Assembly (NCBI RefSeq): GCF_964340395.1
Contig: NC_135552.1
Coordinates: 10,547,194-10,611,193, forward strand
Direction: 5' to 3'
Source: Glandiceps talaboti
Lineage: Eukaryota; Hemichordata; Enteropneusta; Spengelidae
Length of the DNA: 64,000 nucleotides
In this document: one piece after another, positions 4,506-64,000 of the stretch
Numbering within the stretch: the stretch's first letter is position 1
How the letters are laid out: each line of letters starts with the position of its first letter
Made by a program: the position numbers and the translations under genes
Notes under the pieces: model-generated
What the model saw: the letters and a program-made list of their open reading frames with translations, nothing else
Databases searched by the model: none
Told to the model about the DNA's origin: nothing

Positions 4506-4624
4506 CTAAGGGTATATGATAAAACCTTTATGGCTTGGATGCGGGTTTTGTTGAACTTGGTAGTATGGCTTACGAGCCTGCCCCTTTTGCCATACAACCT
4601 TGATCCACAAAACCCACATCTTGG
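4506..4624 (-). CDS. Exon 15: candidate terminal coding exon
   Basis: Acceptor ACATCTTTGCAG. In the phase inherited from exon 14 it reads AKMWVLWIKVVWQKGQARKP and on to a TAG at 4508-4506 (39 codons including the stop). The base composition is richer in G and C than its surroundings. An alternative frame contains CGFCG but needs a different phase. It could instead be 3' UTR or a repeat fragment. Confidence 0.45.
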
Positions 4625-6851
4625 CTGCAAAGATGTACAGTTGAAATTTCTACACAATAATACTGTTAAAATTATTATGTGCATACATGTCAACACACAA
4701 TATAAGTTTATTTTCAGTAACTTTACCAGTTGCCAAAGATCTGTGACAATTTTCTTCACTACGAACAACTGGCCTTTTCATGTACTGTTTGTTCTTTATT
4801 CTAGCATTTGGTGCCATATCACTATAACTTTCAAAAATATCTTCTGACTTGTAAGACTTTCTCATGTGGTCAAGAATCCTAAAACTACCTGGAAGTGTAA
4901 GTATGTTATTCCATTTCTCATACACTTGTACTGACATGTCTGTACGAAGTACGAGCGATCTTGCTGATTCAGATTTCTTGTTCTCTAGGTCTTCATAATT
5001 CTGAGTATTTCTCATCTCATTGTGACTACTTCCTGGTTTATCAGGGTCTTGTTGATGCACTTCTGTATCAACACCTACACATTTCATTCTCCTTTGTTCA
5101 GATGTTGATTCCAATGAACATTTCAAGTTTTCACTCTGACTGACTTTGTCTTCATTCTGGGGTTCGATAGCCGTTGCTTGTCGAACTTCTGGTTTATTTT
5201 CATCATCTGTTATACATGCTTCAAAGAAGAGAATACAAGTAAAATTACATATTAATAGAAGATGAAAGACATCATCTAATTCATTGTAAATTATATACAA
5301 AACAAAGAGAAAAAATGTTTAGTATTATCACTACCCTCAACTCAAACTTTATAAACTTAGATAGAGGAGAGCAATTTAGATATATACTACAATCAAAACA
5401 TAAGGATATTATAACCGCTCTCTACATATACCTGGATGATACATGTAGTCAATAGACACACACTAGAACTACTGTATACTTTAATATTTATATTTCATAG
5501 ATCATTATTAACTTTATTTTGTTTAAATACCAAATTAGAAATGTAAAATTTTCTAAACGGCTAAAATAAAGTGTTATCTTATCTTATCTTTTATCTTTAT
5601 CTTATTAATAAAGGGCAAGATTTGGCTACAGAGTGAACCTTATAATGAGACAACTATGAAACTATGACATAGAAACAAATTATTAACAGTCACTGCATGA
5701 AAAGGTGGAGTTTGTGGTTCCATATACATGACGGTCACTCAACGGAATTGCAGCAATTCTGGATTCGCTGCAATTCCGTTGTGTGTCCATCATGTGTATA
5801 GAAATGGAAATACCACCCATTCATGCACTGTGCCACGATTTTTCATCTTGGGTATATTTCTCTTACAGTGCAATTTTTAGTATACATTACATTTCATGGT
5901 TTTATAAATGGGTCTTTTACACTAAAATATGTACAAACAATAAAATAAACTTTTTCAAATCAAATTATATAAAATGCTGTTGGAAACACTCCATAACGAC
6001 ATACTAAGTAATTTAACATATAACAATAAATTTACTGTAAAGGCTAACAAAAAATTGTGTGGTTCCAATTACGCTGAATTTAGAATAGGTGGGGTAGGTA
6101 GATTTTTTTTGTGAGTGTCAGGTTATGTTTTCAGTTATTTTCATATGGTCTCTGTGTTATTGGTTTCTTCCCATCAGATGTACAGCCATTACAGATTGGA
6201 AGAATAGTTTTATATTATATTGTCTTATATCATATGTCAGTTTCGGCAGCCACTATTTCTCATGAGACTTCACACTTTTCATGATTGTATTTATTTTTTC
6301 TTGAATATGTAAAAAAAAAAGTTTTCGGTTGGCAGTGAAAAACTAGGTGGGGTCAGGTATTAAACCGGAACTGAACAATTTTTATAGGACTAATCCGTAC
6401 ATAATGTCTGTAACTTTGAACTATTCATCATCAATTTGTGCGAGTTGAAAGACATGGCCAACCTTTACATGAAATCACTTATTAATCATTGTAATAAGCT
6501 GTCTACTTGTCATTGGTGGTACTGCATACTTTGGCTTGATGTCCATGTGTAACCAGTTGTGTAAAAAAATATGAACCATTGTTTGTCAACACATTGCAAA
6601 TTTGGGGGATGCTGATAGTGGTGATCATTAGGCAATCATACATGTTTCAGTAAGTGCAACAACATGTCAATATTGAAAATAGGGGACGTTCATTATTTTC
6701 ATATATTATGGAAGGGGGGGGGGGGGGCATTGCAATTGCTTTTCTGAGAGTAGCGGTGTCCTAAAAATTTCAGTTTTGTAAAGAGGATACCTGCTTAGCA
6801 ATTTCTCACTCCTTCCTCCTACCATAAATAACTAAGCTAGAAATTACAAAA

Positions 6852-6894
<43 letters not shown>

Positions 6895-9800
6895 ATATAT
6901 TCCTATTAAGGGTACTGGGACTATATCATTAAAAAAGTGAATGAATCAATTAGCCTGTGAAAATGTCTACCTTTGTGTTGCATCAATCCTTGAAATAGCC
7001 ACCTTGAGTTCGTAACAACTTCTGACAGTAAATTCTGAAGAAATCTACATCTCTCTAAATGGAATAAGACTTTGGGTATGCAATCAGACATCAAAATTTG
7101 ATTCATCGTATCTCTGAGGTCAACTTTGATTCTCAAAGACGAGTTTCCAAAGGAGCCAGCTGACCAGGGAATAACAGCTGTAAAGGAGAGAATGAAAATG
7201 ATAAAATTAATCCATCGTAATTGGTAAATAAAAATCTGTAAGTCTCCAAACTTCAGGAACACTGTATTTCAACTACAGCCCTGTTTCAGTTATGGTACGT
7301 CCCTTATAAAAATGGAAATATCACACAGAGAAATATATTTTATAAGGTAGTTATGATTATTCAACTATATATATAAAAAATTATATATTTTTATACGTAA
7401 CTTTACCACCATTGTTCATTTCTCTGTGTCTAAATATATTGACTTCTCGTGATATTAACTGTAAAATTAATTATTATATTATTATAATAATAATAATAAT
7501 AATGCATATATCCTACCAGGTTCCAAGTTATACAGCTGAGTTGACTGGGAAACTACCGCTGTTTGAATCACTGTTTGCCAAAAGGGGGCGCCACTCAGAA
7601 ACTAATAACAGAGGCAATCTGCAATCTGCAGAAGTTCCAAGATGGCCACTGTAACCATGCAACCATCATGACACCATACACATATACTCTGATAATGAAA
7701 AGCAGTTCTAATTACTTACCTTGGTGTTTCTTTTGTACTTCTTGATCAGCTTTTTCAATCAATTCTGTGGCTTTCTGCTGATGCTCCAATGCATCCGTTA
7801 TCTTGGCAACATCAAAGTACACATTTCCAAGTTTGAAATGAGCTGTTACAGTAATTGAAAATAGAGAATGGAGGAATTTATATGGACCAGACAAGTATAT
7901 ATTTTAAAATTTGTAAATTTAAAACGTTCTTCTTTAACTGTATCCTTGTCAAAAGAAATTTAAATCTGATCATATTCATAATATGTTTCATAAATAAATT
8001 TCCGCTTAAACTTTTGTTATTGTGTATGTCATGGAATTTGTAAGGCATCAATCTTTATTCTCATGAACAATTACTTAAAAACATATTTCATTTATTTCTG
8101 TAATATCCATAGTTTTCCTTGTCATTAAATCTATTGGGTATATGGTTGACCACCTTATCTTCTTTTGCATGGTGAACCACTTTATAAATGGTGGACCATA
8201 TGTGTGCAAATCTAAGTATTGTTGGTCATGCTACCGATAGTAGAACAATCTGTCAATGGTTGAACATCTATGGTGGACCACTATATCTATGATTGACCAC
8301 TTTCTCAATGGTTGACAACTCTATCTATGGTTGACCACTCCGTCAATGATTGACCACTCTATATACAACATGTATAGTAGACCATTCTGTTTGGTTGACC
8401 ACTCTATCAATGGTAGACCACCCTGTCTATGATTATAACCATTCTATCATTGGTTGAAAATTGGTGGTCCACTCTATCTATGGTAGACCAATCTATCAAT
8501 AGTACTCTATCTATTGTGGATCAGTCTATCAATGGTAGACCACCCTGTCTTAGAATAATGGTTGACCACTCAATCTATGGTGCACACGGCCCACTCTATC
8601 ACTGACCACTCTATCAATGTGGCTAACGCCATCTATGGTTTTAATTATACCGGTAAATCAAATCTATCCTTAAAACTATATTTGTCAATGATCAATATCT
8701 GGTCACAAATTAGAATTTAGCAAACACTGCCTACCTTCGGCAAGTTTCTTGTACTTAATATGATCTGGTTTCAATGTAAGCAGGGCCTCCGCAACTCTGA
8801 ATGACGTCTCAAATATAGGTTCAGCGGTCCTCGGTCGTCTCTTCACACTTCGTAAGTAGTAGCCTACATTGTTAAACAGTGGCACTGGGTCTTCCAGATC
8901 TTTCTTCATTGTCTCAACAAACTGTTTGGTGAAGGTGTTTTGTAAGGCTGCTGTATGAAGTATTATTTCTTCCTTTTCTGGTGGTAGTGGCACTGTTAAC
9001 CCAATCATCTCTGACTTCTTTGGAAATGTTGTCTTTAGCACCATCGTGGCATTGTTGACTGCTTGCACATATCTGGAAATCTTTCTCTGAAGGCTTTGTT
9101 TCACCATGTCTTGGATGACCTTGGGAATGCTGAAAACTGATGGCTTTCGGTCAGATGTCAGTGCTAGGTTGTGGTGGCAAAGAATCAATAGTAACAAATC
9201 TATGAAGTTTCTCTCTGATTCCTGATGCTGTCTGGCTCTTTTGTCTTCAGAGCCAACGTAAAGATCTTCTGCCAGCCTGTCCATGGACTCTGTGTGTTTC
9301 ACCAGTAGAGTTGCTCCATTGACCACAACAGATTTAGAGATAGTTGATGCAAAGAAAGACAAGGTGTTTAACATCGTCAAAGCTGCCACACCATTGGGGT
9401 GACTTTTCACATCTCTTCGTACCAATTTCCAAATACAAGTTCTGAATGAGACGACTTGTGGTAGATTGACTGTTATTTCTTGTACTGCTGAACTCTGCTT
9501 TTTAGATTGGTCAGTCACTTCAAAGCTTTCAGTTTCATCATCTGGTTCATCCACATCATTGATCTTCTCATCGCTAACTGTTGTATCATCATTATCCTCA
9601 TCTACACCATTTGAATCCTGTGATAGTATGAGAGACATCATCTGGTACTGCTGTCTGTATGTTACAAAGCTTGATCTCTTCTCCTTTATGTAGCAGCCTG
9701 CTGATTTGATGGCCAGTGGCAAGTTTTCCAGTTCTTCAACCAGTACTTGCAGGGCTTGGTAGTTTTGCCTGTCTTCACCTTCCATCTGTCTCAAAGTTGT

Positions 9801-12800
9801 GTACACTTGTGTTGTTGGTGTTCCCTGGCAACACAACAGTAACTTCATTGATGCAGCCTTTGACAAGGGACCAATAGTGATATCTTCTCGAACACCAGGG
9901 AAATGTTCTTTGAATTTTGCGTGTCTGGTAGTGATGATAATGTGGCCTTTACTTGGAAATACTGGAAAATAGTGTTTGATGAGTTCTAAGTCAGTGACAT
10001 CATCCAAGATAAGTAGCCAGCCTGGATTGGACTCCAACCATGTCAAAGCCTGTGACTTGGTTTGTCTTGCTGTTATACAAGTCTGTCCATCATCCAAAGT
10101 ACTTCCCAGGTTCAGGTTTTGGAACTGTAAGAAAAGTTTCTTTTTCAATTAGATGTTTATTATTCTACTAGTATTAACGTATCCCTGACAGGAAGCATTG
10201 ATAATAAAAATTTGTAATAAAATCTACATTTTTTATGCTGATACATATGAAAAGCTGATTACTTAAACGCATTCATTTATCTTCAAATGGCAATTCATCT
10301 GAGTTTGTAAACCATAGTAGATAAATCCTAGACACTGAGACTAGGCACTTTGAACGAGGGGAGAAGGTAGCTATCTACATCCGGGCACTTACATAATCAT
10401 TGAACAGAGATGGAGGGTGATATAAACTTCCAGGAACCTATGAACCCTTAATAGGCTCACATGTCCACAAGGTCAAGGGTACTGAATAGTGGGTCAATCT
10501 GTTGATGAAGACTGAAGTGTGCAGTTGAAAATTTCAGGTAAAATGTTCAAGTTGTGTTGGGAACAAAAGTTAAATTACAAGCACTCATTGATTTTGGACC
10601 CCCGGTTTAATATTTACACACTACGTACAAAAAAACACCCTAATTTGTGAAAGTGATACAAGATATGTTTTTTCTTCTTGATCTGAAGTCCTTTCAGTAT
10701 GGAATATAATGGACCAAAAATGTAGACTTGACTTTGAAGTCCAATGCAGTCACAATTCTTGGTACCTGCAGTACAATTATACCACCTAGGTATGTAGTAA
10801 AGATTAGGTATAAAAAAGAAAGCTGAACATGTGAAAGTGATGAACACTATATTGTACTTGCAGTACTTTCAGCCTGAAACAATCTGAATTGTAAATATTG
10901 TGTATATCACTAAAACCAATGCTGTCATTGTTATGGGCATACTGGATACCTACCTCAGTTTTACCCATACCACTAAATAATTAGAAGTTGACTTACTATT
11001 GTACTAAATCCATGGTCCAATGCTGTCATTGTGATGGGCATACTGGAGACCTACCTCAATTTTACCCATACCACTAAATAATTAGAAGTTGACTTACTAT
11101 TGTACTAAATCCATGGTCCAATGCAGTCATTGTGATGGGCATACTGGAGACCTACCTCAATTTTACCCATACCACTAAATAATTAGAAGTTGACTTACTA
11201 TTGTACTAAATCCATGGTCTAATGCAGTCATTGTGATGGGCATACTGGAGACCTACCTCAATTTTACCCATACCACTAAATAATTAGAAGTTGACTTACT
11301 ATTGTACTAAATCCATGGTCTATTATGCAGTCATTGTGATGGGCATACTGGAGACCTACCTCAATTTTACCCATACCACTAAATAATTAGAAGTTGACTT
11401 ACTATTGTACTAAATCCATGGTCTATTATGCAGTCATTGTGATGGGCATACTGGATACCTACCTCAGTTTTACCCATACCACTAAATAATTAGAAGTTGA
11501 CTTACTATTGTACTAAATCCATGGTCTAATGCAGTCATTGTGATGGGCATACTGGAGACCTACCTCAATTTTACCCATACCACTAAATGAATAGAAGTTG
11601 ACTTACTATTGTACTAAATCCATGGTCCAATGCTGTCATTGTGATGGGCATACTGGAGACCTACCTCAGTTTTACCCATACCACTAAATAATTAGAAGTT
11701 GACTTACTATTGTACTAAATCCATGGTCCAATGCAGTCATTGTGATGGGCATACTGGATACCTACCTCAGTTTTACCAATACCACTAAATAAATAGAAGT
11801 TGACTTACTATTGTACTAAATCCATGGTCCAATGCAGTCATTGTGATGGGCATACTGGATACCTACCTCAGTTTTACCAATACCACTAAATAAATAGAAG
11901 TTGACTTACTATTGTACTAAATCCATGGTCCAATGCAGTCATTGTGATGGGCATACTGGATACCTACCTCAGTTTTACCAATACCACTAAATAAATAGAA
12001 GTTGACTTACTATTGTACTAAATCCATGGTCCAATGCAGTCATTGTGATGGGCATACTGGATACCTACCTCAGTTTTACCCATACCACTAAATAATTAGA
12101 AGTTGACTTACTATTGTACTAAATCCATGGTCCAATGCAGTCATTGTGATGGGCATACTGGATACCTACCTCAGTTTTACCAATACCACTAAATAAATAG
12201 AAGTTGACTTACTATTGTACTAAATCCATGGTCTAATGCAGTCATTGTAGCAGCATTCATCCAGTACAGTCCTGATGGATAGTCTCTGTGGTACCTGTAG
12301 GCATACTGGATAGCTACCTCAGTTTTACCAATGCCTCCAACACCACTAAGAACCTGAACAAATTTGAAATATGATCACAAATACTTGAATGTCTCCGAAA
12401 CATTAATGATGAATAATTGAATCACTGCCTGGTCAAGGTCCGTCGTAGATGGATCGAAACATTACATTTAATTGTTTCTAATTTATCATTCCAAAGTAAC
12501 TATATTTTACTGTTCTATATATAATGCACAGAGTGGTAATACCTACATGTATCAGGTTATCCTTAGACACGTCTTCCAAGATATCTTGTTTACATACTCT
12601 ATAAGAATTGTATATCCTGTCATGTATAGCATCATTGCCAACAAAGATGTCAGATGGTGGGGGTGATAAACCTAAAGAATAATGAACAGTTTTTTTATAG
12701 TTTGTTAGATTCTGGGTGCCATTTTCCCCACAACTTTAAATCTTTTTAAAATAATATGATAAAACAATATGACAGAACCCCATGATGCATAAGTGCTAGT

Positions 12801-15800
12801 ATGATATACTTGGCAGTGTTTTCTGCGACCACAATTTTACAAGCATAGTGAGTAAAAGTGCAGCTGAGAAGACTACAAGCACAAGGGTGACTACTGTACT
12901 TCTGAGTACAAACGCTGGCACTCACACAGCATGGGTTTTTGTTATTCGTACACTTGTTTCTCCAAAACATCAAATTACCATAAAGAATCACACTGTCTGA
13001 TCATATATTTTTGTGTGCAAAGAAATGGATTGGCCCTTATTTGCATATCATTTGCATTTATCATAGACCCTCCATAGACCCTCCACCAACATTGGTGTAG
13101 GGTCTCAGTATGCATTTATGTATGCAATAATGTTTTGGGGATTACACTGCTATGCAAATACTACCATTGCAAGAAATCTTTGGTACATATATATAATATA
13201 TATGGTAATATCATAACTAGGCAAAGCCCATAAGGTCGCACAGGGTAGATTCATTTGTGATGGCAGCTACGCGGCGCAAGCTAATAATGTTTACTCTGTA
13301 TATCATTATGAGTACTCACCAATGATATCGTCCGTCTCTCGTGATGTGGTGACTTCTGATGTTTCTGCACTGCAATGTTCAAAAGGCACTGGTGACTCTG
13401 TATGTATGAAGGGAAGAAAATCACAAAACAATAATACATTTAGCACTGAGGTGATTTGTGTGAATGGTAATTTTTTTTTTACAAATCATTTACCACGTTA
13501 TAACAATTAATAATATCACACGTTATTGTTTTTATCCAAAAATGAGGCAATATACCATTTCAGATTATAGAATCCTCATGAACATGCATGTAATAACATC
13601 TTTTTTGATATTGCAAACAGTTACCATTTTAGATTAAACAGGAAGTGCTCTTGCTCCTTGTTACATAAATGAATTAATATATAATTATATAAAAAAAAAA
13701 TTTCGAAAAAAGATCAATTAATTCTTACCAAATTCTTTGATTACTTCTGTCAGGTCTTTATCAAAGTAGTTAATCTGGAGAGTGTCAGTTGTTGTTATGA
13801 TTGGCTGAGCTATTCTCCTGATGATGTCATCAATTTGACCACTTTGTAGTTTGTCTAGAAGTTCATCAGCTTCGTCCTGATTGGTCATTTTCAAATCCAG
13901 AATAATGCAGCCTTCCCTTACATCAGTAATCGTGTATCCAAGTGCAGCTGATGCAGCAGCCTGTCCATCTCCAACATGACTACCAGAATCCTTTGCTGTA
14001 GTGCCACCATGACTACCAGAATCCTTTGCTGCAGTATCACCATGAATACCAGAATCCACTGATAAAGTGACACCAAGACCACCAAAATCCTTTGCTGCAG
14101 TATCACCATGACTACCAGAATCCTTTGCTGCAGTGCCACCATGACTACCAGAATCCTTTGCTGCAGTATCACCATGACTACCAGAATCCTTTGCTGCAGT
14201 GCCACCATGACTACCAGAATCCTTTGCTGCAGTATCACCTTGACTACCAGAATCCTGATGATCAGAACTGCCTGATGATAAGTATTGAAGGAGGGCCTGG
14301 ACTGCTTCTTCATTCTCATCATCAATAACTATCCGAACTGTAAAGCCGAATAATTTTAATTAACAAGTATATAATAATAAATCATTTCAATAATGAAGTT
14401 AATTTCACCATCAATTCAAATTTATACAGCATTATATTTCATTCATCTTATTTTTTTAAAAACTTTTTCAGGATGATTTGCCCAAAGGTTACTACAGTAT
14501 AAGAGAGAATAAAAAATCCAAATGAATTGGCAAACTTCTAAGTTTCTGATAAGTTACACACAACGAATCTTCAGGACGCAAGACTTTTTGTGGAAAATTT
14601 GTCCAAATATTCTGATGTGAAACATGAAAAAAGAACTTGATGAATACCAATGGACAATGCTGACAAAAGTTAACCCTAGCTGCAGCAGGTCAACTGCCAA
14701 ATTCCAATAAAATTTTTTATCAACACCAAAATGTTGGAGAAACCCGCAATGCCAAATTTATGTATACGACATACCTGTGCCAGGTCTTCTAGGGTGAGAT
14801 CTTTCCTTCTCTGACAGATACTGTGCTGAACTGCTTTGATCTGTAGAGAAAAAAATTGTAATCCAATATTTACTGTTTTTCTATGGCTATATCAGGGTAC
14901 TACCCAGTCTCAAAGTTGAGTTGGTCAGTCACTGCATATCCACAATTAATTATAAGTATACCAGGCACAAACCAAATAACTGTCTTTGAAAAGTATATGT
15001 CACTGGTTTTGTGGTGCTAGCAATATGAGTCAAAACGTTCTAAATCATCATCACTTTTCCTGATTTCCATACATTATGCATTAAGAGGTATAGTTATATT
15101 ATTCACAAATATTTTCCTTCATTCAACTGAAAAATACTTATGACCTAAAGGTTTGTTGCTACTCATCTAGTGACTCAGTGACATTGTTAGGCCCTTAGGT
15201 AACTTGTATTTTCCTTGGTTGAACAACGAAAAATATTGGGAATATAATAATTATATCAATATACAGGTTAGATGAGTTAGATGAGGCACAAAATTTATAT
15301 GAACCATGATTAATATGGACAATTTATCTGAATTCTCTGAATTCTGATAAAAGAGAACTTTGCTAGTCACAACATCAATATATGTGCCCACTTGGATGAG
15401 AAGGTGACTAAGGAAATATTTGGGTAGAAAATAATTCCCTTACCTAATTCTTTGAAAATATCGACAAAATCTTGCTCAACAGCAACCACATCAAGTCGAG
15501 CACATCTTACATCAGCTTGTTTCAGTATGTCTTCTGTTAACAGCAACTGTCTGAGTCTGTGTGCTAGTTCTCCAGTTTTGGCAATTTTGAAGAGATTCTT
15601 GGCTTTACCAATGTTTGTTGGGAAGGCATGTAAGACAACACAGCCGTATGAGATGTCAACCTTGTAGCAGCTAAGTATACTCAGTAATTGTTGCCATTCT
15701 TCATTCTGTGTTTCCTGGCTAGTGTGCAACATACTCAGCAGTTTCTCTGCCAGTTTCACATGACTGTCTAGGATTATTCTCACTGTAAATTAAGCAAAAG

Positions 15801-17492
15801 AAAACTTTACAATGAGCGAATGCAATCAATTTGAATCATTTTATACAGAATATTTTCATCTTCATGAAAAAATTACTTGCATTTCTTTATTTCAATATCA
15901 AGCAGGTAGTATGAAATGCATGAATTTGTTAGAACAAAAAATATGGGAATTATATCCTAGTTGTTCTACTTCACGACAACACATGTAATGTCTACATCAT
16001 CGGTTTTGCAGTACTCAAAATATAAATGACAGTGTTCAAAATCAGCATTATTTTTCCAGATCTTTCATAAATTATGCTTGCACAGGTGTAATTCTACAAT
16101 ATACGTTATTCCCTAAAGTCTTTCTTCATTCAGCCAAAAAAATACTCATGGCTATGATTTTGTCACTCCTTGACGATGAACAATTTGGCACACTTTAATT
16201 TGGCAGACAGTGCAAGTAGAAAGTATAGACACTTCTTGTAAATAACTCATCCAGTTGGCCTGTTGTATTCAGTGCAACTGGTGGTTACACCTTCCACAAC
16301 AGTTGAATATAGACATAATATTATTGAGACTTACTAACTGCAGAAAAAGCTTTGCACATATTTAGCTGAAATAAATCCAGCGCCAAAAAAAAAAACAATA
16401 AAATAAATCAAATTTAACCCAAATATACCCATGAAGTTACAGCTGATTCCCCTACTGACTCACCAGATTCTTTAACTCTCTTATGTGCACTCAACTTCAA
16501 TTCTTCATACTCTTCTCTAGAGTGAGGCTCCCCTCTATTACTTGCTTTAATGTAAAAAAAACAAAACAGCAATTATATAATCGACAAAAATTTATAGAAA
16601 AACAACGAATGGATGTTGGAGGGAACTGAATGTAATTTTGTACATGTCAACATTTTTGAAACATTACCCTGCTCACGTGCGAAACTAGTTGATGATTCAT
16701 GCCATTTTCATCTACTGCTGATTTCATGAATAACATTGTGCCATTATAGGTCTGTACCACAGGTAATTATAAATCACTTCGAGCACAGTTTAGGAAAGCA
16801 TGATGTAGAAACTACCATAACTATAATACACAATGTACATTGAGTGTCATTTTTGTTTACATGAATTTAATTATATTTTTAGCACTGACAAATAAACTAT
16901 TGAAATTTGCTATTTATTAAAAACAATTTGAGAGTAACTAAAATTGTCTTTTACCTAGTGACAACTGACCACCTGGAGGAACCACAACGACATCAGTAGA
17001 TTCAGGACTTGTGGATGATGAGTTTTGTGTGTCGTCTTCTCCATCAGGACAATCAACTTGAAGATCAGAGTCACTGTCCTGACCATCATCATCTGAAACC
17101 AGGCTATGACATTCTATGGATAACAACACCATGCTACCTGGAAAATGATGAAATGAGATTGGTCATTCTGTGAACTACAGTCTGAGAATTTTTTTTACTG
17201 ATAGCGAGATAACTTAAAGGCATCTTTGATTTTAGATAGTCACAAGAAGTACATTGAAGGCCAGCTAAAACTGATGATGTATACATGACTACCAACTGTA
17301 GACAATAGAATTCCCTAATATCTATACACAAACTGGTGATGTCATTAGATTGTGGTTGCAAAAACCAATGATGTCATATGATGGATTGGTGATCTTTCAA
17401 AATATTGTCTTGCAATATGTAAATCACTGGTCATTGCATGAATCTATATGGCGAATACATGCACAAAATTGATTATATTTGTTAGCCAAAGA

Positions 17493-17536
<44 letters not shown>

Positions 17537-19331
17537 GTGCGTGTGTGCGTGCGTGCGTGTGCGTGTGCGTGTGCGTGTGTGTGTGTGTGTGTAACCACTG
17601 CACCTGGACTGCCAAAAGAGGTATCATTTCACCAACAATGTTATCTTCAGATCTCATTACCTGATGGTATTTGGCAAGCACTATCCTCTTCTGGTTGACT
17701 GATTTGTTCTCCACGATGATTTGTCAACACTGGGGGTGATATCGGCATGGACAAACCATCTTGACTCTGTACATCATCTGAAACTGATTCCCTAGTATTT
17801 GATCTTCTGGTATGATAGGTCAGTATTGCGACCTGTCGCATACTTTCATCGTGGTGCTCAAGTTCTTGTCTTTGCATTTCCACAGTCTTCCTCTCAATTT
17901 CTTCTTTCAGTCGGTTTTCAGTTTTGATCAAATTTTCTTCGTTCCTCACACAGAGTTCTTCTATTTGCTTGCTGAGGTCCTCGTTTACATCACTGACTTG
18001 ACGTGTCAGTTCTTGTTGCTGTCTAACATGGGTTTCTTCACAACTGTGTTGCTGACAACTTTCTATCTGTTTCAAGAACTCATCATGGCGGAGTGCTGCC
18101 TGTTTCTCTATATCCAGACATCTCTGATCAAACCCTTCTACACTTTGCTGCATCAATGCTAACTGTTCACTGTGTCTTTCACTTGACTCAACCACCTGTT
18201 CCTGCACATTGCTACTGATCTCAATCATTCCATCTTTCATAATTTGCTTCAATTGTTCTTCACACTTGGCCTGAGCTGCTTCACAATTCTCTTGTAATAT
18301 GTCTTTGATATTTTGTTGCTTGGATGCTTCTATAATGCTCACTTTCTGACATAAGTCCAACATGGTTTCTTTGCTGGACTTCTGTTCTTTCATAATAGTA
18401 TCAAGCTGTGTACCAATACTCTGGACAATTGTTGTCATCATGGCTGCCAAGCTGTCAAACTTTTGATTGAATTCCCCCTTTAGTTTGTCTACCTCAGTTT
18501 TTATCTCTATCACTTCCTTCTTCACTTGCTTATGATGTTCACCAACATCTTCAACGATAGTTTTTTTGACCTTGTCATGCATGTCTCTGCATTGCCTTTC
18601 ATGTTCAATGGAATGAGACTTGACAACTTCAAAGAACCTTGCTGCATAGCCATCCATTTTCGCTTGAATTTTGTCGACACGTTGATCATGTGTTTTGAAA
18701 TCATCTTCAAGTTTTTTGAGCATGCTTTTTATGTTTGTACTGACCTCAACATCTCTATTTTCAATCTCTTTAATTTCCTCAGGTACACAGTCATCACTTT
18801 GACTTAAAACTGTTGATTTGTTAATATTTTGACTGCTGCATCTGCCTTCACATGCTATGTTTTTTTCCTGCCCTTGTACTGCTAGAGAGTGAAAAAATCA
18901 AATAACAGTGTACAATATCTATATGAATGATGATATTTAAGATAGAGTGCACATCTCAGATGAAAATCTATCCAAACTTTGTCATATGGAAGCTTGTTCA
19001 TAGTCCTTTGAAATAATGAAAGAAATTTGGGGTCCACCATCTTGTTTTCAAGCAAATTCAAATTGATAATCTTTTATTTTTCACGTAAAGTTAACTCTGT
19101 GCATTTGGTGGCCATATTGGATTCTAAAATGACATAGTTTTTGAAAACTTTTGACCTCTATTTCAAAAATTCATTGTCATCTGTCATGATCAACCAATGT
19201 TGGTTCTGTGGCCTACCTTCAGTTTGTGGTAACACTGTCACCTTCACTCTATTCTCTTCTTTCAGTTCAACCCTTTGAAATTCGTCATTTGATGAACTCT
19301 GAGATGAGGTGACTTCCATTTTTTCTGTCAT
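4506..19331 (-). CDS. Multi-exon NLR/STAND-type protein: coiled coil, two TRADD-N-like domains, NB-ARC, TPR (gene-level entry)
   Basis: Coding exons in transcript order: 19331-19217, 18878-17661, 17092-16955, 16544-16464, 15782-15444, 14840-14775, 14337-13729, 13397-13320, 12671-12547, 12353-12213, 10124-8735, 7842-7720, 7177-6971, 5218-4727, 4624-4506. Every junction has AG/GT ends and matching phase; the sum is 5,241 nt, about 1,746 residues plus a stop. By family knowledge, NB-ARC proteins are nucleotide-driven oligomerisation switches in innate immunity and apoptosis, and TRADD-N-type domains mediate adaptor contacts. Visible elements are Walker A (about residues 927-934), Walker B (1006-1013), sensor-like HIIITTR (1031-1037), the LPL motif (1105-1107) and C-terminal TPR-like hairpins. 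There is no signal peptide or membrane segment, so it is probably cytosolic. The domain role is inference from motifs; the last two exons are the least certain part of the model. Confidence 0.85.
4727..5218 (-). CDS. Exon 14: polar C-terminal region
   Basis: A 492-nt, phase 1-1 exon. The acceptor follows TTCTCTTCTTTGAAG and the donor is ACTG/GTAAAG. The ~164 residues are Glu/Ser/Lys/Asn-rich (ENKPEVRQATAIEPQNEDK and similar), with a more ordered stretch WNNILTLPGSFRILDHMRKS. If the donor is not used, the frame runs on to a stop at 4650. No domain was recognised, and it is probably largely disordered. Confidence 0.65.
5719..5812. repeat. Short inverted repeat (hairpin)
   Basis: CAACGGAATTGCAGC and GCTGCAATTCCGTTG are perfect 15-bp arms around a 12-base loop. 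Weaker pairing extends outward through TATACATGACGG and CCATCATGTGTATA. It is probably a tiny foldback element. Confidence 0.7.
6058..6365 (-). mobile_element. Dispersed ~330-bp repeat, family E copy 1 (inverted)
   Basis: Contains GGTTTCTTCCCATCAGATGT, ATTACAGATTGGAAGAATAG, AGAATAGGTGGGGTAGGTAG and CTAGGTGGGGTCAGGTA. All recur in inverse orientation at 37470-37830 and 54105-54440. There is no ORF of note. Confidence 0.8.
6848..6897. repeat. (AAAT)n microsatellite
   Basis: About 12 tandem AAAT/ATAA tetramers just downstream of exon 13. Confidence 0.95.
6971..7177 (-). CDS. Exon 13: unrecognised C-terminal segment
   Basis: A 207-nt, phase 1-1 exon with acceptor TCCTTTACAG and donor AAAG/GTAGAC. 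The translation opens AVIPWSAGSFGNSSLRIKVD and includes CIPKVLFHLERCRFLQNLLS, with amphipathic helical character. No family was recognised. It is placed in the gene because splice sites, phase and strand all fit between exons 12 and 14. Confidence 0.6.
7720..7842 (-). CDS. Exon 12: TPR-like hairpin
   Basis: A 123-nt, phase 1-1 exon with acceptor GTAACAG and donor GTAAGT. AHFKLGNVYFDVAKITDALE and the following HQQKATELIEKA show the TPR pattern (L-G-x-x-Y, A-L-E, A). The first helix is completed by KYKKLAE from exon 11. TPR tails on STAND ATPases usually sense the ligand; that role is inferred here. Confidence 0.85.
8140..8640. repeat. Degenerate ~20-40-bp minisatellite in intron 11
   Basis: Many diverged copies of a unit around TTGACCACTCTATCAATGG (for example near 8280, 8330, 8395, 8465, 8535 and 8595). 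The copies vary in length and some are fused, so this is an old array. It lies between exons 11 and 12 of the NB-ARC gene and has no coding potential. Confidence 0.8.
8735..10124 (-). CDS. Exon 11: Walker B to winged helix and first TPR-like repeat
   Basis: A 1,390-nt exon entered in phase 0 after TTTTCTTACAG and left in phase 1 at GAAG/GTAGGC. In order it has Walker B WLLILDDV, sensor region GHIIITTRH, an ENLPLAIKSAG motif typical of the NB-ARC helical domain, and a ~30-residue run of Asp/Glu (about residues 1140-1172). A winged-helix-like stretch ALTMLNTLSFFA follows, then a helical region ending in TPR-like NNVGYYLRSV...AEPIFETSFRVAEALL. The MHD histidine motif was not identified with confidence. 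The tail KYKKLAE joins exon 12 to complete a second TPR. Confidence 0.93.
10914..12240 (-). repeat. 101-bp tandem array derived from the P-loop exon, filling the downstream intron
   Basis: A CCATGGTC core recurs at about 11011, 11112, 11213, 11314, 11417, 11520, 11621, 11722, 11823, 11924, 12025, 12126 and 12227: thirteen sites, spacing 101 bp with two at 103. Read on the minus strand, each unit has AGTGGT-ATTGGTAAAACTGAG (a P-loop shortened by the nine bases encoding VGG), then the CAGTATGCC segment. About 54 bases of the true exon are then missing and replaced by seven. The exon's last ~36 bases follow, ending at ATA/GTAAGT. The units are intronic and frame-shifted relative to the gene. Confidence 0.95.
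12213..12353 (-). CDS. Exon 10: P-loop (Walker A) exon of NB-ARC
   Basis: A 141-nt, phase 0-0 exon. It reads VLSGVGGIGKTEVAIQYAYR, then YHRDYPSGLYWMNA and ends LDHGFSTI at an ATA/GTAAGT donor. GVGGIGKT is a canonical GxxxxGKT Walker A, and the following AIQYAYR...Y..gLYWMNA is the usual AP-ATPase alpha1-beta2 region. The exon is the evident source of the 101-bp tandem array that fills the next intron. Confidence 0.93.
12547..12671 (-). CDS. Exon 9: N-terminal strap of NB-ARC (FVG motif)
   Basis: Acceptor TTCTTTAG, donor CAT/GTAGGT, entering in phase 1 and leaving in phase 0. The translation GLSPPPSDIFVGNDAIHDRI has the 'PP..D.FVGR.....L' signature that precedes the P-loop in AP-ATPases, here with FVGND rather than FVGRE. 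It ends DNLIH, which joins directly to VLSGVGGIGKT of exon 10. An alternative donor three bases away (GTAG/GTATT) was rejected because it would bring an in-frame stop into exon 10. Confidence 0.82.
13320..13397 (-). CDS. Exon 8: short linker before NB-ARC
   Basis: A 78-nt, phase 1-1 exon with acceptor CATACAG and donor GTGAGT. It encodes ESPVPFEHCSAETSEVTTSR and then ETDDII, polar and probably flexible. It links the second TRADD-N-like domain to the NB-ARC start and joins to exon 9 in frame. Confidence 0.7.
13729..14337 (-). CDS. Exon 7: second TRADD-N-like domain with an internal 11-residue repeat expansion
   Basis: A 203-codon, phase 1-1 exon (acceptor CTTTACAG, donor GTAAGA). The first 30 residues (VRIVIDDENEEAVQALLQYL) match the start of exon 5. 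The middle is about 8.5 copies of an 11-residue unit, DSGSHGDTAAK or DSGSHGGTAAK in near alternation. The last ~95 residues restore the domain with YTITDVREGCIILDLKM, LLDKLQSGQIDDIIRRI and DLTEVIKEFG, matching exon 5 in order and spacing. The repeat therefore sits in the loop after the first helix, where exon 5 has only a short linker. Function is inferred as for exon 5. Confidence 0.82.
13974..14254 (-). repeat. In-frame 33-bp coding minisatellite inside exon 7
   Basis: About 8.5 tandem units of 33 bp encode an 11-residue Ser/Gly/Asp/His-rich motif; GDT and GGT versions alternate. One unit has diverged (residues DFGGLGVTLSV). The period is a multiple of three and no unit contains a stop in the coding frame. 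The shadow frames are also open, which produces spurious antisense ORFs over the same stretch. Confidence 0.9.
14775..14840 (-). CDS. Exon 6: 22-codon linker between the two TRADD-N-like domains
   Basis: A 66-nt, phase 1-1 exon with acceptor CTCTACAG and donor GTATGT. It encodes DQSSSAQYLSEKERSHPRRP and two further residues, hydrophilic and probably unstructured. Being a symmetric phase 1 exon, it could be skipped without frameshift. Confidence 0.68.
15001..15258. mobile_element. Dispersed repeat family F, copy 1 (intron 5)
   Basis: Shares an ordered set of blocks with 15941-16180 and 50853-51155: a TTTTG/CTG..GT..TCAAAATAT start, TCTTTC-like middle, TTCTTCATTCA, then the GTCACT region and an AAAAATATTGGGAA end. 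Similarity is diverged, about what is expected of an old non-autonomous element. Confidence 0.55.
15444..15782 (-). CDS. Exon 5: first TRADD-N-like domain of the NB-ARC gene
   Basis: A 113-codon, phase 1-1 exon (acceptor TTTACAG, donor GTAAGG), so the domain is a self-contained module. It opens VRIILDSHVKLAEKLLSML, followed by a hydrophobic beta segment YKVDISYGCVVLHAF, then FKIAKTGELAHRLRQLL and a final helix DFVDIFKELG. The order helix, buried strand with a G-C/S-V-V core, 'GEL..RL' helix, strand, helix resembles the N-terminal domain of TRADD, where the pattern is an I-V-Q-L strand followed by a 'reGaLr..L' helix. It is also alignable with exon 7 of the same gene at both ends and at the strand core. 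The TRADD-N assignment is by eye and should be read as fold-level. Confidence 0.78.
15941..16180. mobile_element. Dispersed repeat family F, copy 2 (intron 4)
   Basis: Same orientation as copy 1, on the other side of exon 5. It starts ATATGGGAATTATATCC-GTTGTTCTACTTCACGACAAC, which matches 50853 onward (TATATACCC-GTTGTTCTAC-CACGACAACA). Confidence 0.55.
16464..16544 (-). CDS. Exon 4: short charged linker of the NB-ARC gene
   Basis: An 81-nt, phase 1-1 exon, acceptor TACATTAAAG and donor GTGAGT. It encodes 27 residues starting ASNRGEPHSREEYEELKLSA, with high charge and a short predicted helix. It is called from splice signals and frame continuity with the TRADD-N-like exon that follows. No independent function is visible. 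Confidence 0.68.
16955..17092 (-). CDS. Exon 3: acidic/Ser-rich linker of the NB-ARC gene
   Basis: A 46-codon, phase 1-1 exon with acceptor TTTCAG and donor GTAAAAG. It begins DDDGQDSDSDLQVDCPDGEDD and continues with a Ser/Thr run, then VVVVPPGG. The composition is that of a disordered acidic linker between the coiled coil and the globular domains. Multiple SD/DS pairs could be casein-kinase-type phosphorylation sites (inference). No homologous domain was recognised. Confidence 0.75.
   Translation of the reverse strand: MMMVRTVTLIFKLIVLMEKTTHKTHHPQVLNLLMSLWFLQVVSCH
17493..17593. repeat. (GT)n microsatellite in intron 2
   Basis: About 100 bp of GT dinucleotides with GC-for-GT variants in the middle, between exons 2 and 3. 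All ORFs across it are artefacts. Confidence 0.97.
17661..18878 (-). CDS. Exon 2: long coiled-coil region of the NB-ARC gene
   Basis: This is an uninterrupted 1,218-nt exon (406 codons), entered after a CTCTCTAGCAG acceptor and left by a GTAATG donor, phase 1 at both ends. The translation is rich in Glu, Lys, Gln and regularly spaced Leu/Ile/Val/Met (for example KKLEDDF, VKKEVIEIKTEVDKLKGEF and NRLKEEIERKTVEMQRQELE), as expected for a long parallel coiled coil, about residues 80-380 of the protein. The C-terminal 60 residues turn Ser/Pro-rich and are probably a flexible linker. By analogy with other NLRs, the coiled coil could serve as the N-terminal oligomerisation or signalling region; no specific family was recognised. 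Confidence 0.85.
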
Positions 19332-19352
19332 TTTTTCTGAGTGGCTGTTTTT
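19217..19352 (-). CDS. Exon 1 (start codon) of the NB-ARC gene
   Basis: The coding part is 19331-19217, beginning MTEKMEVTSSQSSSND and ending VTVLPQTE plus one base before a GTAGGC donor (phase 1). A likely acceptor TTATTAG ends at 19353, giving about 21 nt of 5' UTR in this exon. The reading frame upstream of the ATG is open within the exon, but if the 20105-20069 leader exon is spliced on, an in-frame TGA precedes it, supporting this start. A second ATG lies four codons downstream. The segment is hydrophilic, Ser/Glu-rich and probably disordered. Confidence 0.72.
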
Positions 19353-20068
19353 CTAATAAAACAAGCTGATACTGATACAGGCTACTAAAATGCAATGAAT
19401 ATGAAAATGAAAAGCGTTGTTTATTTAACATTAGAAATAGGAGAGCTGACTTTGTGAATAATTGTAAATAATTTTATTTGTTGGTTTGAGAGAGAAGAGA
19501 TAACATGGAGAAACAGCAACCATCCAAAGGTCTTCAGTTGAGTCTGATAATTTCTATTTGCTGAAAATTGTGCTCAAAGATTCAAATCATTTGATTCAGG
19601 GTATACGGCTAAAAGAAAATTTAAGACACTGTTGGAATCTTTCAAGTGGGAAACCGTTTTAGATTTGATCTAGCAATTACCACAGGGTAAGTTTGACTGC
19701 TTGTCCTGTTGTCCAATCTGATACTACTATTATCTTGTTATTTATTTTGTATAAGTTCCCATAAACATAAATATGTTCCCAAGTCTGCCAAGAACTACGT
19801 AATTAGTACACTGTTTTCTAGACTGGATGCCAACTGTGTGAGTGAAGGTATAAATCATAACGATACTGTATAGGAACTAGACTAATTGTTTTCAGATGCA
19901 ATGGTTCTTGTCGAGTTTCAAGATTTGCCAACAAAGGCAATAATACTCTTACTGCTACAATAGCAGTATTTGTATATAAATCTTGACCTCAGAGACTGTG
20001 TTTATGATTCTTATCACAACACAAAAATACAGAAAAATGATTTTGGTAGGACTGATTAGATTTCTTAC

Positions 20069-34060: not shown

Positions 34061-34583
34061 TATAAACTAGCTCACACCTAAAATTTGCACCATATTTTTG
34101 ATGGTATTATGAATACTAACATAAGATAATAAATAATACTTGTCTTCACATCAGGATGTCTTGTTTGTAAAGCTCTTACACTAATATTTAACTACACTGT
34201 ATACCTAATAAACCTTGTGATAGATGATGCATGTACATTGTATCTGTTGATACTAAGCAGACTACCTGTATTATGACAATTGACCAAATGAAAAAAAAGA
34301 TAAATGTTTGCCTTTACCATATTTCATAAATTCTGAAGCTATTTATAGTCTAACATATCTCCCTTCCAGAAGAATCACATGACTGTTATTACATATATAT
34401 GTATAAAAAGAAATCTTCCAATTTGATCTCATTCTAAATTTAAGACATTTGACTTTACCTTAATATAAGATTTATTATTATTTTTTTTATTCACAAATAA
34501 TCATATGGTCATTATTTATCATACATAATTCTCTTGATGATATAACTCAATACAATTCTGGTGTATATTTTGTGTTGAGTCAT

Positions 34584-35730
34584 GTCCAGTGTATTTTTAG
34601 TAGGGATGTGAATGTCAATTTGTATGTCCAGTGTATTTTTAGTAGGGATGTGAATGTCAATTTGTATGTCCAGTGTATTTTTAGTAAGGGATGTGAATGT
34701 CAATTTGTATGTCCAGTGTCTTTTTAGTAAGGATGTGAATGTCAATATGTATGTCCAGTGTATTTTTAGTAGGGATGTGAATGTCAATTTGTATGTCCAG
34801 TGTATTTTTAGTTGGGATGTGAATGTCAATTTGTATGTCCAGTGTATTTTTAGTTGGGATGTGAATGTCAATTTGTATGTCCAGTGTATTTTTAGTTGGG
34901 ATGTGAATGTCAATATGTATGTCCAGTGTATTTTTAGTAAGGGATGTGAATGTCAATTTGTATGTCCAGTGTATTTTTAGTTGGGATGTGAATGTCAATT
35001 TGTATGTCCAGTGTATTTTTAGTTGGGATGTGAATGTCAATTTGTATGTCCAGTGTATTTTTAGTAGGGATGTGAATGTCAATTTGTATGTCCAGTGTAT
35101 TTTTAGTAGAGATGTGAATGTCAATTTGTATGTCCAGTGTATTTTTAGTAGAGATGTGAATGTCAATTTGTATGTCCAGTGTATTTTTAGTAAGGATGTG
35201 AATGTCAATTTGTATGTCCAGTGTATTTTTAGTAGGGATGTGAATGTCAATTTGTATGTCCAGTGTATTTTAGTAGGGATGTGAATGTCAATTTGTATGT
35301 CCAGTGTATTTTTAGTAAGGATGTGAATGTCAATTTGTATGTCCAGTGTATTTTTAGTAGGGATGTGAATGTCAATTTGTATGTCCAGTGTATTTTTAGT
35401 AGGGATGTGAATGTCAATTTGTATGTCCAGTGTATTTTTAGTAGAGATGTGAATGTCAATTTGTATGTCCAGTGTATTTTTAGTAGAGATGTGAATGTCA
35501 ATTTGTATGTCCAGTGTATTTTTAGTAAGGATGTGAATGTCAATTTGTATGTCCAGTGTATTTTTAGTAGGGATGTGAATGTCAATTTGTATGTCCAGTG
35601 TATTTTAGTAGGGATGTGAATGTCAATTTGTATGTCCAGTGTATTTTTAGTAGAGATGTGAATGTCAATTTGTATGTCCAGTGTATTTTTAGTTGGGATG
35701 TGAATGTCAATTTGTATGTCCAGTGTATTC
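34584..35730. repeat. 42-bp minisatellite, about 27 copies
   Basis: Unit GTCCAGTGTATTTTTAGTAG plus GGATGTGAATGTCAATTTGTAT. Variants differ mainly at AGTAGGG, AGTAAGG, AGTAGAG and AGTTGGG; two units lack one T and are 41 bp. ORFs on both strands (LYVQCIFSRDVNVN, HWTYKLTFTSLLKI) exist only because 42 is divisible by three. Confidence 0.97.
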
Positions 35731-46315: not shown

Positions 46316-48966
46316 TCTACAAGTTGATTAGTGTTCAGTCAGTAATTTTATCCGATATCTTCTAGCTTGACCTTGACATGTGTACAGTCAGTGATTTTAT
46401 CAGATATCTACAAGTTGACATCTACATGTCTATAGTCTGTGATTTTATCAGATATCTACAAGTTGACATCTACATGTCTATATAGTCAGTGATTTAATCA
46501 GATATCTAGAAGTTGACATCTACATGTCTATATAGTCAGTGATTTAATCAGATATCTACAAGTTGACATCTACATGTGTATAGTCAGTGATTTTATCAGA
46601 TATCTACAAGTTGACATCTACATGTCTATAGTCAGTAATTTTATCAGATATCTACAAGTTGACATCTACATGTCTATATAGTCAGTGATTTTATCAGATA
46701 TCTACAAGTTGACATCTACATGTCTATAGTCAGTGATTTTATCAGATATCTACAAGTTGACATCTACATGTCTATAGTCAGTAATTTTATCAGATATCTA
46801 CAAGTTGACATCTACATGTGTATAGTCAGTGATTTTATCAGATATCTACAAGTTGATTGACATCTACATGTCTATATAGTCAGTGATTTTATCAGATATC
46901 TACAAGTTGACATCTACATGTCTATATAGTCAGTGATTTTATCAGATATCTACAAGTTGACATCTACATGTCTATAGTCAGTAATTTTATCAGATATCTA
47001 CGAGTTGACATCTACATGTCTATAGTCAGTGATTTTATCAGATATCTACAAGTTGACATCTACATGTCTATAGTCAGTAATTTTATCAGATATCTACAAG
47101 TTGACATCTACATGTCTATATAGTCAGTGATTTTATCAGATATCTACAAGTTGACATCTACATGTCTATATAGTCAGTGATTTTATCAGATATCTACAAG
47201 TTGACATCTACATGTGTATAGTCTGATTTTATCAGATATCTACAAGTTGACATCTACATGTCTATAGTCAGTGATTTTATCAGATATCTACAAGTTGACA
47301 TCTACATGTCTATAGTCAGTAATTTTATCAGATATCTACGAGTTGACATCTACATGTCTACAGTCAGTGATTTTATCAGATATCTACAAGTTGACATCTA
47401 CATGTCTATATAGTCAGTGATTTTATCAGATATCTACAAGTTGACATCTACATGTCTATAGTCAGTGATTTTATCAGATATCTACAAGTTGACATCTACA
47501 TGTCTATATAGCCAGTGATTTTATCAGATATCTACAAGTTGACATCTACATGTCTATAGTCAGTGATTTTATCAGATATCTACAAGTTGACATCTACATG
47601 TCTATATAGTCAGTGATTTTATCAGATATCTACGAGTTGACATCTACATGTGTATAGTCAGTGATTTTATCACATATCTACAAGTTGACATCTACATGTC
47701 TATAGTCAGTGATTTTATCACATATCTACAAGTTGACATCTACATGTCTATATAGTCAGTGATTTTATCAGATATCTACAAGTTGACATCTACATGTCTA
47801 TATAGTCAGTGATTTAATCAGATATCTACAAGTTGACATCTACATGTGTATAGTCAGTGATTTTATCAGATATCTACAAGTTGACATCTACATGTCTATA
47901 GTCAGTAATTTTATCAGATATCTACAAGTTGACATCTACATGTCTATATAGTCAGTGATTTTATCAGATATCTACAAGTTGACATCTACATGTGTATAGT
48001 CAGTGATTTTATCAGATATCTACAAGTTGATTGACATCTACATGTCTATATAGTCAGTGATTTTATCAGATATCTACAAGTTGATTGACATCTACATGTC
48101 TATAGTCAGTGATTTTATCAGATATCTACAAGTTGACATCTACATGTCTATAGTCAGTGATTTTATCAGATATCTACAAGTTGACATCTACATGTCTATA
48201 TAGTCAGTGATTTTATCAGATATCTACAAGTTGACATCTACATGTCTATAGTCAGTAATTTTATCAGATATCTACGAGTTGACATCTACATGTCTATATA
48301 GTCAGTGATTTTATCAGATATCTACAAGTTGACATCTACATGTCTATAGTCAGTGATTTTATCAGATATCTACAAGTTGACATCTACATGTGTATAGTCA
48401 GTGATTTTATCAGATATCTACAAGTTGACATCTACATGTGTATAGTCAGTGATTTTATCAGATATCTACAAGTTGACATCTACATGTCTATAGTCAGTGA
48501 TTTTATCAGATATCTACAAGTTGACATCTACATGTCTATATAGTCAGTGATTTTATCAGATATCTACAAGTTGACATCTACATGTCTACCGGTATAGTCA
48601 GTGATTTTATCAGATATCTACAAGTTGACATCTACATGTCTATATAGTCAGTGATTTTATCAGATATCTAGAAGTTGACATCTACATGTCTATATAGTCA
48701 GTGATTTTATCAGATATCTACAAGTTGACATCTACATGTCTATAGTCAGTGATTTTATCAGATATCTACAAGTTGACATCTACATGTCTATAGTCAGTGA
48801 TTTTATCAGATATATCTACAAGTTGACATCTACATGTCTACCGGTATAGTCAGTGATTTAATCAGATATCTACAAGTTGACAGCTACATGTCTGTAGTCA
48901 GTGATTTTATCAGATATCTACAAGTTGACATCTACATGTCTATATAGTCAGTGATTTTATCAGCAG
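46316..48966. repeat. ~49-bp satellite array, about 54 copies
   Basis: Unit TATAGTCAGTGATTTTATCA-GATATCTACAAGTTGACATC-TACATGTC. Length variants come from TATA/TATATA and from AAGTTGA/AAGTTGATTGA. Substitution variants (GTAATTTT, GATTTAATC, CACATATC, CTACGAG) recur in blocks. Each unit holds the palindrome AGATATCT. The array decays at 46316-46400 and stops abruptly at 48966. Confidence 0.97.
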
Positions 48967-63117: not shown

Positions 63118-63594
63118 CACCAAGGGAGCACAAATTGAGGGATATGCACAATTTCCTACTAAAGTATAACTCCAGAAGAGAGGTGTATGCATTGAATACA
63201 AAATATCATATTTTGACTCATACTAATGTTACATTAAATAGTACAGTGTTTCTCTCATATGTACAGTTAAATTATAATTTTCACTCGGAATCCGAAACTC
63301 TGAAATCAATCATTGTGTTTGTTTGAAGAAAGTATCCTACAGGGGTGATATGCTCCAACCTGGAAATTAAAAAATGTGATCAACTTCTTGAAATTCCTGG
63401 AAAATTGATCAAACTGAGTGATTGATGTACTGTCATTTAAAGTATAAATTTTGGAGGAAAAAAAATGTTTTGCCAAAATGTTTTTTGTATATTTTGCTGA
63501 CCAATGCTCCTAGAAATGATAAGTTTATATATTAATAATCTGAATACTCCTGTCAGTTACTAAATCAGCCTGTACTTTCTGTTTTGTTTCACAG

Positions 63595-63727
63595 ATGGAA
63601 ACCACAGATGACACAGCACAACTAGTAGATAATGAAAAGGGACTCTCTGATGAAGACAAAGACCGTAGTAGTTTATCAGGAGCTAGTCTCAATACAGTCA
63701 ATAGTATTATTGGATCAGGTATATTAG
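63595..63727 (+). CDS. SLC38-type (SNAT11-like) amino acid transporter, exon entering TM1 (gene continues past window)
   Basis: Acceptor TTTGTTTCACAG, donor TTAG/GTGAGT, leaving in phase 1. It encodes METTDDTAQLVDNEKGLSDE, then RSSLSGASLNTVNSIIGSGILG. The last 14 residues are the start of TM1 in SLC38/AAAP transporters: (F/L)NxVNSIIGSGI(I/L)G is the unwound, substrate- and sodium-binding part of helix 1, and the form is nearest SLC38A11. The family carries neutral amino acids across plasma or lysosomal membranes. Because the exon begins with ATG at its first base, transcripts with alternative leaders could start translation here. Confidence 0.85.
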
Positions 63728-64000
63728 GTGAGTTCACCCTTATCTTTACTCAGGAAATGACACAGTCCATTTTAGAGAGGGGATATCAGCATGTATGATA
63801 CATGATATGAAGATGAGCAAGTTGGGATTTAATGCAATATGTATCATAATGTCTGTCTCTCACACCTTATTTAAATTATCTTCTATCTATTGGCAGTCTA
63901 TACCTGAGGTCCCATTACATAGGTCAAGAATGTAAAATGATAATAGGTCAGGATTCTCTTCAACACAAAATATCACCAGTTTCATGGAGGTGATGTCAGT

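Follow-up and report, generated by a model that had tools for sequence, protein, structure and literature searches.

A tandem array derived from the P-loop exon of an NB-ARC gene is probably a near-neutral minisatellite of the mirage kind

What does an intron do with a tandem array that repeats, a dozen times over, the very splice donor with which the intron begins? The question is raised by the intron following the Walker A (P-loop) exon of a predicted NB-ARC gene on the minus strand of a 64,000-nucleotide stretch of contig NC_135552.1 (positions 10,547,194 to 10,611,193; hereafter the window, numbered from its first base). An initial annotation recognized there a tandem array made from this exon, and proposed that it could be either a splicing brake on an immune switch or simply an exon-derived minisatellite. 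The annotation knew of no described case of this kind, yet comparable repeats have been reported. Minisatellite-like tandem duplications of exon-intron boundaries occur in lancelet globin genes, where they go by the name “mirages”, taken over from an earlier study of Adh3 (PMC3087553); repeats of 60 and 108 bp lie at splice sites of lancelet PGBD5 (PMC3902484); and in human duplicated genes, variable tandem repeats sit at the boundaries between exons and introns (PMC2812944). These articles, like all others cited below, are represented here by excerpts of their text. Our analysis indicates that the array is most likely an exon-intron boundary minisatellite of the mirage kind, close to neutral in its effect.

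The array is real and highly regular. Tandem Repeats Finder (TRF) calls it at 10916-12248 with a period of 101, 13.2 copies and 97% matches, and it resolves into 12 full units followed by a truncated 13th. Like a mirage, it adjoins its parent: the P-loop exon (exon B in Table 1) ends at 12213, 22 nt of intron follow, and unit 1 starts at 12190. In total it takes up 1,297 of the 2,088 bases of the intron (62%), which is well short of the initial description of an intron consisting almost wholly of array. The parent segment is 157 nt long and runs from the AGTGGT in codon 3 of exon B to 22 nt past the true donor into the intron; once the 9-nt GTTGGAGGC and two further pieces of 22 and 25 nt are taken away, its length is exactly 101 nt. 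The nine-base loss of the VGG codons had been correctly identified before, but the two further deletions had gone unnamed, and it is these that made the 3’ end previously described as fused. Compared with this deleted parent copy, the ten 101-bp units carry 2-7 substitutions and the two 103-bp units 4 and 6 changes (counting a 2-bp AA insertion as one change). Alignment of the units to the 141-nt exon, suggested in the initial annotation as a check, succeeds: the exon segment and unit 1 align locally with a score of 155, whereas none of 300 dinucleotide shuffles exceeds 24. The 9-nt loss falls in a stretch in which GGTGTTGGA and GGCATTGGT, read by eye, are near-repeats of each other, so slippage fits; the exact point of this loss is approximate, and MAFFT shifts the first six bases of the unit slightly against the exon. 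Exon and intron sequence from across the splice junction both lie inside the unit, which is the hallmark of a mirage.

A second hallmark, local homogenisation with a diverged edge, is equally evident. From the parent outward, units 1-12 differ from the deleted exon copy by 3, 3, 2, 2, 3, 6, 5, 4, 6, 5, 6 and 7 changes, a number that rises with distance (Spearman 0.82, with the units treated as independent although they are related). Adjacent units show a mean of 1.8 differences and units at least six apart a mean of 3.9 (P 0.005 versus random order, with the related units again treated as independent). Between any two units there are 0-5 substitutions, the variants occur in blocks, two units have a 2-bp insertion, and the unit at the far edge is truncated, with its 3’ part lost. 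This pattern is one of tandem turnover, with new or converted units near the parent and older, frayed ones at the far edge. The exact 101-nt derivation and the pattern of homogenisation support the exon-derived minisatellite that had been offered as the simpler of the two initial proposals. The same variation bears on the possibility that the array is an assembly artefact, its length being wrong or collapsed, which we judge very improbable. Correct assembly of a tandem array of about 1.3 kb is difficult, and one lancelet mirage was apparently mis-assembled in a genome draft (PMC3087553). The 0-5 substitutions between units, the blockwise variants and the two 2-bp insertions are, however, unlike simple stutter, although they leave the copy number itself unconfirmed.

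Little resembling the unit is found beyond the array. The tail of unit 13 has a weak resemblance to the unit (P 0.017, tested after it had been noticed), and further into the intron, past the array, 14 nt at 10739-10752 (minus strand; E 0.002) match the unit exactly and may be what is left of an older copy. Taken as a whole, however, the intron outside the array aligns with the unit no better than chance, with 110 of 300 shuffles scoring as high. Outside 8700-12680, the window contains only one 13-nt match to the unit (E 0.20) and only two matches to exon B (E 0.29). A search for other exon-boundary duplications, as direct repeats of at least 30 nt within 4600-10900 and 12214-19400, yielded none beyond three simple repeats: a 19-bp-based repeat at 8221-8557, an array of 33-bp units (13971-14256) and a microsatellite of GT. 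The first of these is a degenerate repeat of the CTATCAATGGTTGACCA type, located directly downstream of exon C.

Table 1. Predicted exons, array units and intron remainder at the NB-ARC locus, in window positions. A slash marks the exon-intron junction in donor motifs.
Feature	Position	Strand	Description
Exon A	12547..12671	minus	Upstream exon, LSPPPSDIFVGND...NLIH; phase 0 end at CAT/GTAGGT
Exon B	12213..12353	minus	47 codons, including the Walker A motif GVGGIGKT; source of the array units
True 5’ splice site GTAAGT of exon B	12207..12212	minus	In-frame (phase 0) joining to exon C
Twelve full exon-derived units	10975..12190	minus	Ten of 101 bp and two of 103 bp; each with ATA/GTAAGT and GAG/GTAGGT
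Unit 13, truncated	10916..10974	minus	GAG/GTAGGT present; breaks off before the ATA/GTAAGT donor; perhaps a degenerate tail beyond
Rest of intron	10125..10915	minus	No tandem array found (TRF); one 14-nt exact match to the unit
Exon C	8735..10124	minus	Rest of NB-ARC (ILDDV, ITTR) and following region; phase 0 start at 10124

Whether the array could act on splicing depends on the signals its units carry. On the minus strand there are 13 occurrences of ATAGTAAGT, namely the true donor and 12 copies in the array; the plus strand has a single one, at 1434. The initial annotation was thus right that the repeated ATA/GTAAGT is identical to the real donor, but its count of about 13 copies has to be corrected to 12 extra ones. 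It also overlooked GAG/GTAGGT (GAGGTAGGT), the best-scoring site, which is present in all 13 units, from 12172 down to 10956 on the minus strand. At the corresponding place the parent exon reads GAGGTAGCT, and the C-to-G change is common to all 13 units. All splice-site scores given here come from donor and acceptor matrices of human-type frequencies, not trained on the host animal. With these, the true donor scores 5.59, the exon’s internal site 6.49 and the second donor of the unit 10.53; among the 7,905 GT sites of the two strands, this last one ranks within the top 0.32% (13 of those approximately 25 sites being the array’s own copies). The AG-ending, acceptor-like stretch of the unit, previously called pyrimidine-poor, is not especially so. 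It scores 4.3-4.7 in five of the 12 units scored and 2.0 in the other seven, and unit 13 has the same string as the lower-scoring class. Real acceptors score 7.5 (exon A), 5.7 (exon B) and 3.9 (exon C), so that the acceptor-like end lies above the exon C acceptor in five units and below it in seven. These predicted splice signals are credible.

If they were used, translation would stop early. In the gene’s frame, a pseudo-exon reached from the true donor would encode WYW or WYG followed by a stop at codon 4, and this holds for all 12 units, so the initial annotation was right that taking one up would destroy the ATPase. If exon B were instead extended past its donor, VSQLLFI would be added before a stop. 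The predicted pseudo-exon length of 77 nt applies to ten of the 12 units; the other two would give 79 nt with an open frame (GMGKTEVGIQYAHHNDCIIDHGFSTI and a variant), but out of the phase supplied by the upstream exons. These are the two 103-bp units at 11278-11483 (minus strand), in which the extra AA opens a P-loop-like frame through the pseudo-exon. Adjacent 77-nt pseudo-exons are spaced 24 nt apart. Introns of 24 nt are generally too short for splicing, and adjacent units therefore cannot both serve as 77-nt exons. From the true donor, the distance is 24 nt to the first unit acceptor and 125 nt to the second; from the second donor, the next acceptor lies 82 nt away, and the exon between would then be 19 nt long.

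On this basis one could imagine the splicing brake of the initial annotation, in which the donors and acceptors of the array would compete with the true donor, and the stop-bearing share of the transcripts would grow with copy number and set the dose of NB-ARC protein. We consider this unlikely. The one argument for it is the strength of the sites, which comprise 12 exact copies of the true donor and 13 copies of the higher-scoring GAG/GTAGGT. Workable introns would be available through non-adjacent units, at least 125 nt from the true donor, or through the second donor, and both the pseudo-exons and the exon extension would lead to the stops described above. There is also a human precedent for an intronic repeat whose length is tied to exon skipping: the length of a variable number tandem repeat (VNTR) in ABCA7 correlates with skipping of exon 19 (PMC5954066). 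On the other side, the spread of variable positions among the 12 full units gave no signal of selection on the donor. These show 8 variable events along 103 columns, and all of them would miss the 9-nt donor by chance with a probability of 0.48; the observed invariant run of 36 columns is no excess either (P 0.33). The brake also has against it that lancelet mirages, as suggested by reverse-transcription PCR, leave splicing undisturbed (PMC3087553). Introns are, moreover, generally full of splice-motif matches that go unused, though many such matches can be used (PMC10809524). RNA structure offers no further signal, since a 330-nt stretch with about three units has a z of -0.61 and 25 of 100 shuffles fold as well.

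Several points nevertheless weigh against a near-neutral array. Because the array donors are identical to the true donor and GAG/GTAGGT scores higher still, some use of them is plausible. On the minus strand of the window, 206 GT sites equal or exceed the score of the true donor. Of these, 35 lie in 10916-12212 (true donor counted), compared with 39 elsewhere in 5000-19400 and none on the plus strand of the array. The C-to-G change strengthens the second donor in all 13 units; a single event followed by copying would suffice for this, though selection may have played a part. The donor conservation test is weak, being based on 12 related units and 8 events. The evidence on splicing comes from lancelets and may not carry over to the host animal. 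Even within lancelets, the PGBD5 gene model takes almost all of two 108-bp repeats as exon, with no support from expressed sequence tags or mRNA (PMC3902484). A more far-reaching reading is a copy-number-tuned poison-exon device, in which the array donors, including a GAG/GTAGGT gained once and passed on to all 13 units, would divert part of the NB-ARC transcripts to early stops and the length of the allele would set the dose. We regard this as quite improbable. If it were true that the array sets transcript dose, a minisatellite would serve as a rheostat for an immune-type switch.

A further reading is intron or exon birth in progress, with the units as raw material for recruiting an additional exon or an intron in a shifted position. 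Each unit combines AG/GT, at CTGAG/GTAGGT or TTGAG/GTAGGT, with an AG-ending stretch, and models for such a process exist in the lancelet globins (PMC3087553) and in the dual-specific AGGT sites of tandem repeats (PMC10809524); human boundary repeats may likewise form new introns (PMC2812944). Several points stand against this. The 101 bp of the unit are not a multiple of three, the pseudo-exons stop at codon 4 in the gene’s frame, the AGGT site has no pyrimidine tract for use as an acceptor, and the upstream exons do not provide the phase in which the two 79-nt pseudo-exons have their open frame. We give birth in progress only a very slight chance of being correct.

The preferred reading remains a near-neutral boundary minisatellite of the mirage kind, and a simple series of events could account for it. 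The parent segment, which begins in codon 3 of exon B and reaches 22 nt beyond the donor, would have been duplicated in tandem into the intron, and the duplicate would then have lost three internal pieces (9, 22 and 25 nt). Slippage, unequal exchange or conversion may subsequently have multiplied the resulting unit and made its copies partly uniform. Its splice sites would have been inherited by copying along with the unit and do not require selection. We infer that the first, exon-defined donor is normally used. The whole array is most likely spliced out with the intron, and it is probably near-neutral, giving rise at most to a low level of mis-spliced transcripts with a premature stop. Since lancelet mirages have already been described and are reported not to disturb splicing, the array is most likely an ordinary if striking repeat.

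The assignment of the host gene rests on the predicted exons. When exons A, B and part of C are joined, they match NB-ARC (PF00931) in Pfam with an E of 6.1e-9 and 35.9 bits (cutoff 23.5), while exon B by itself, with its last base left off, has no Pfam match. The end of exon C was inferred from GAAG/GTAGGC. An open reading frame (ORF) upstream has a weak match to TRADD-like_N (E 0.013, under the curated cutoff), and the downstream ORF has weak matches to TPR (best E 0.0033, all under the curated cutoffs). Taken together, these matches suggest an animal gene of the NB-ARC-TPR type. A search for protein relatives of the 481-amino-acid ORF at exon C gave a single hit out of 6,779 candidates, with an E of 7e-6 and an identity of 34% over 27%. 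The 33-bp minisatellite at 13971-14256 has 8.7 copies encoding GSHGGTAAKDS-type repeats and lies upstream of the NB-ARC exons, inside the open frame with the weak TRADD-like_N resemblance. Further upstream, at 17647-18897 on the minus strand, a 416-amino-acid open frame has a coiled-coil look and a weak Pfam match to MetOD2 (E 0.00077, under the cutoff).

Minisatellites are common throughout the window. With TRF rows merged by hand, those with a period of at least 10 form 19 stretches including this array, which cover 7,002 bp in 64 kb, and six of them reach at least 200 bp. A large minisatellite is therefore not surprising here; the capture of an exon boundary by one is the surprising part. 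The longest array in the window, at 46337-48963, has about 53 copies of a 48-bp unit over 2.6 kb. Another, at 34582-35729, has 27 copies of a 42-bp unit, a multiple of three, and keeps long open frames on the minus strand. An ORF at 63544-63795 (METTDD...ASLNTVNSIIGSGIL) resembles the start of an SLC38-kind amino-acid transporter. Scans of the window with Rfam and for tRNAs returned 0 matches each. The GC content of the window is 0.331, lower than that of Branchiostoma floridae.

How, then, does the array compare with known repeats at splice sites? The minisatellite of human IFI6 (6-16), reportedly described by Turri and colleagues in 1995, is said to contain multiple splice donors in a short unit at an exon end and to be used in transcripts. 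By that account, a donor is repeated in an interferon-induced transcript as one is repeated here, except that the present unit is 101 bp long and exon-derived and its donors are predicted. Intronic minisatellites as such are known from earthworm metallothionein genes (PMC12783039) and from an abalone gene (PMC6905558), neither being described as exon-derived in the excerpts. The ABCA7 VNTR is likewise of minisatellite type and lies in an intron of a gene encoding a nucleotide-binding domain; it has a splicing correlation and is not called exon-derived in the excerpt (PMC5954066), whereas the present array is exon-derived. The human polyubiquitin gene UBC uses tandem dual-specific AGGT splice sites, and it shares with our locus a splice-type AGGT motif in every tandem unit. 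In UBC, however, these sites delimit coding monomers and the isoforms vary in monomer number (PMC10809524), while the array here is intronic and out of frame. The human boundary repeats are also of minisatellite type, located at exon-intron boundaries and with a possible role in intron formation. They consist on average of four 30-bp units in recent primate paralogs, as opposed to the 101-bp units seen here, and the excerpt contains no case of exon-plus-donor copies arrayed inside an intron (PMC2812944).

The lancelet mirages share the most telling features. Those in Adh3, BflGb6, BflGb9 and PGBD5 have splice signals in their units and a greater likeness inside the array than at its edge (PMC3087553, PMC3902484), just as the present array does. 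Unit lengths of the globin mirages are 150-160, 157 and 10-72 bp; AG/GT signals are frequent among them, and the arrays are unstable in length (PMC3087553). The array differs from them in the three internal exon deletions of its unit, in its NB-ARC host gene and in the 33% GC of the window. In the literature searched, which covered few subscription journals, we found no use of the name mirage for such arrays outside lancelets, and a host other than a lancelet would extend the range over which mirages are known. The array also offers a clean natural test of spliceosome choice, in which, for one exon end and within one intron, a single donor has to be selected from 13 identical copies in the presence of 13 stronger-looking decoys. 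With 13 units it is larger in unit number than the globin mirages considered here, of which that of BflGb6 has 6 and 3 units in two haplotypes (PMC3087553).
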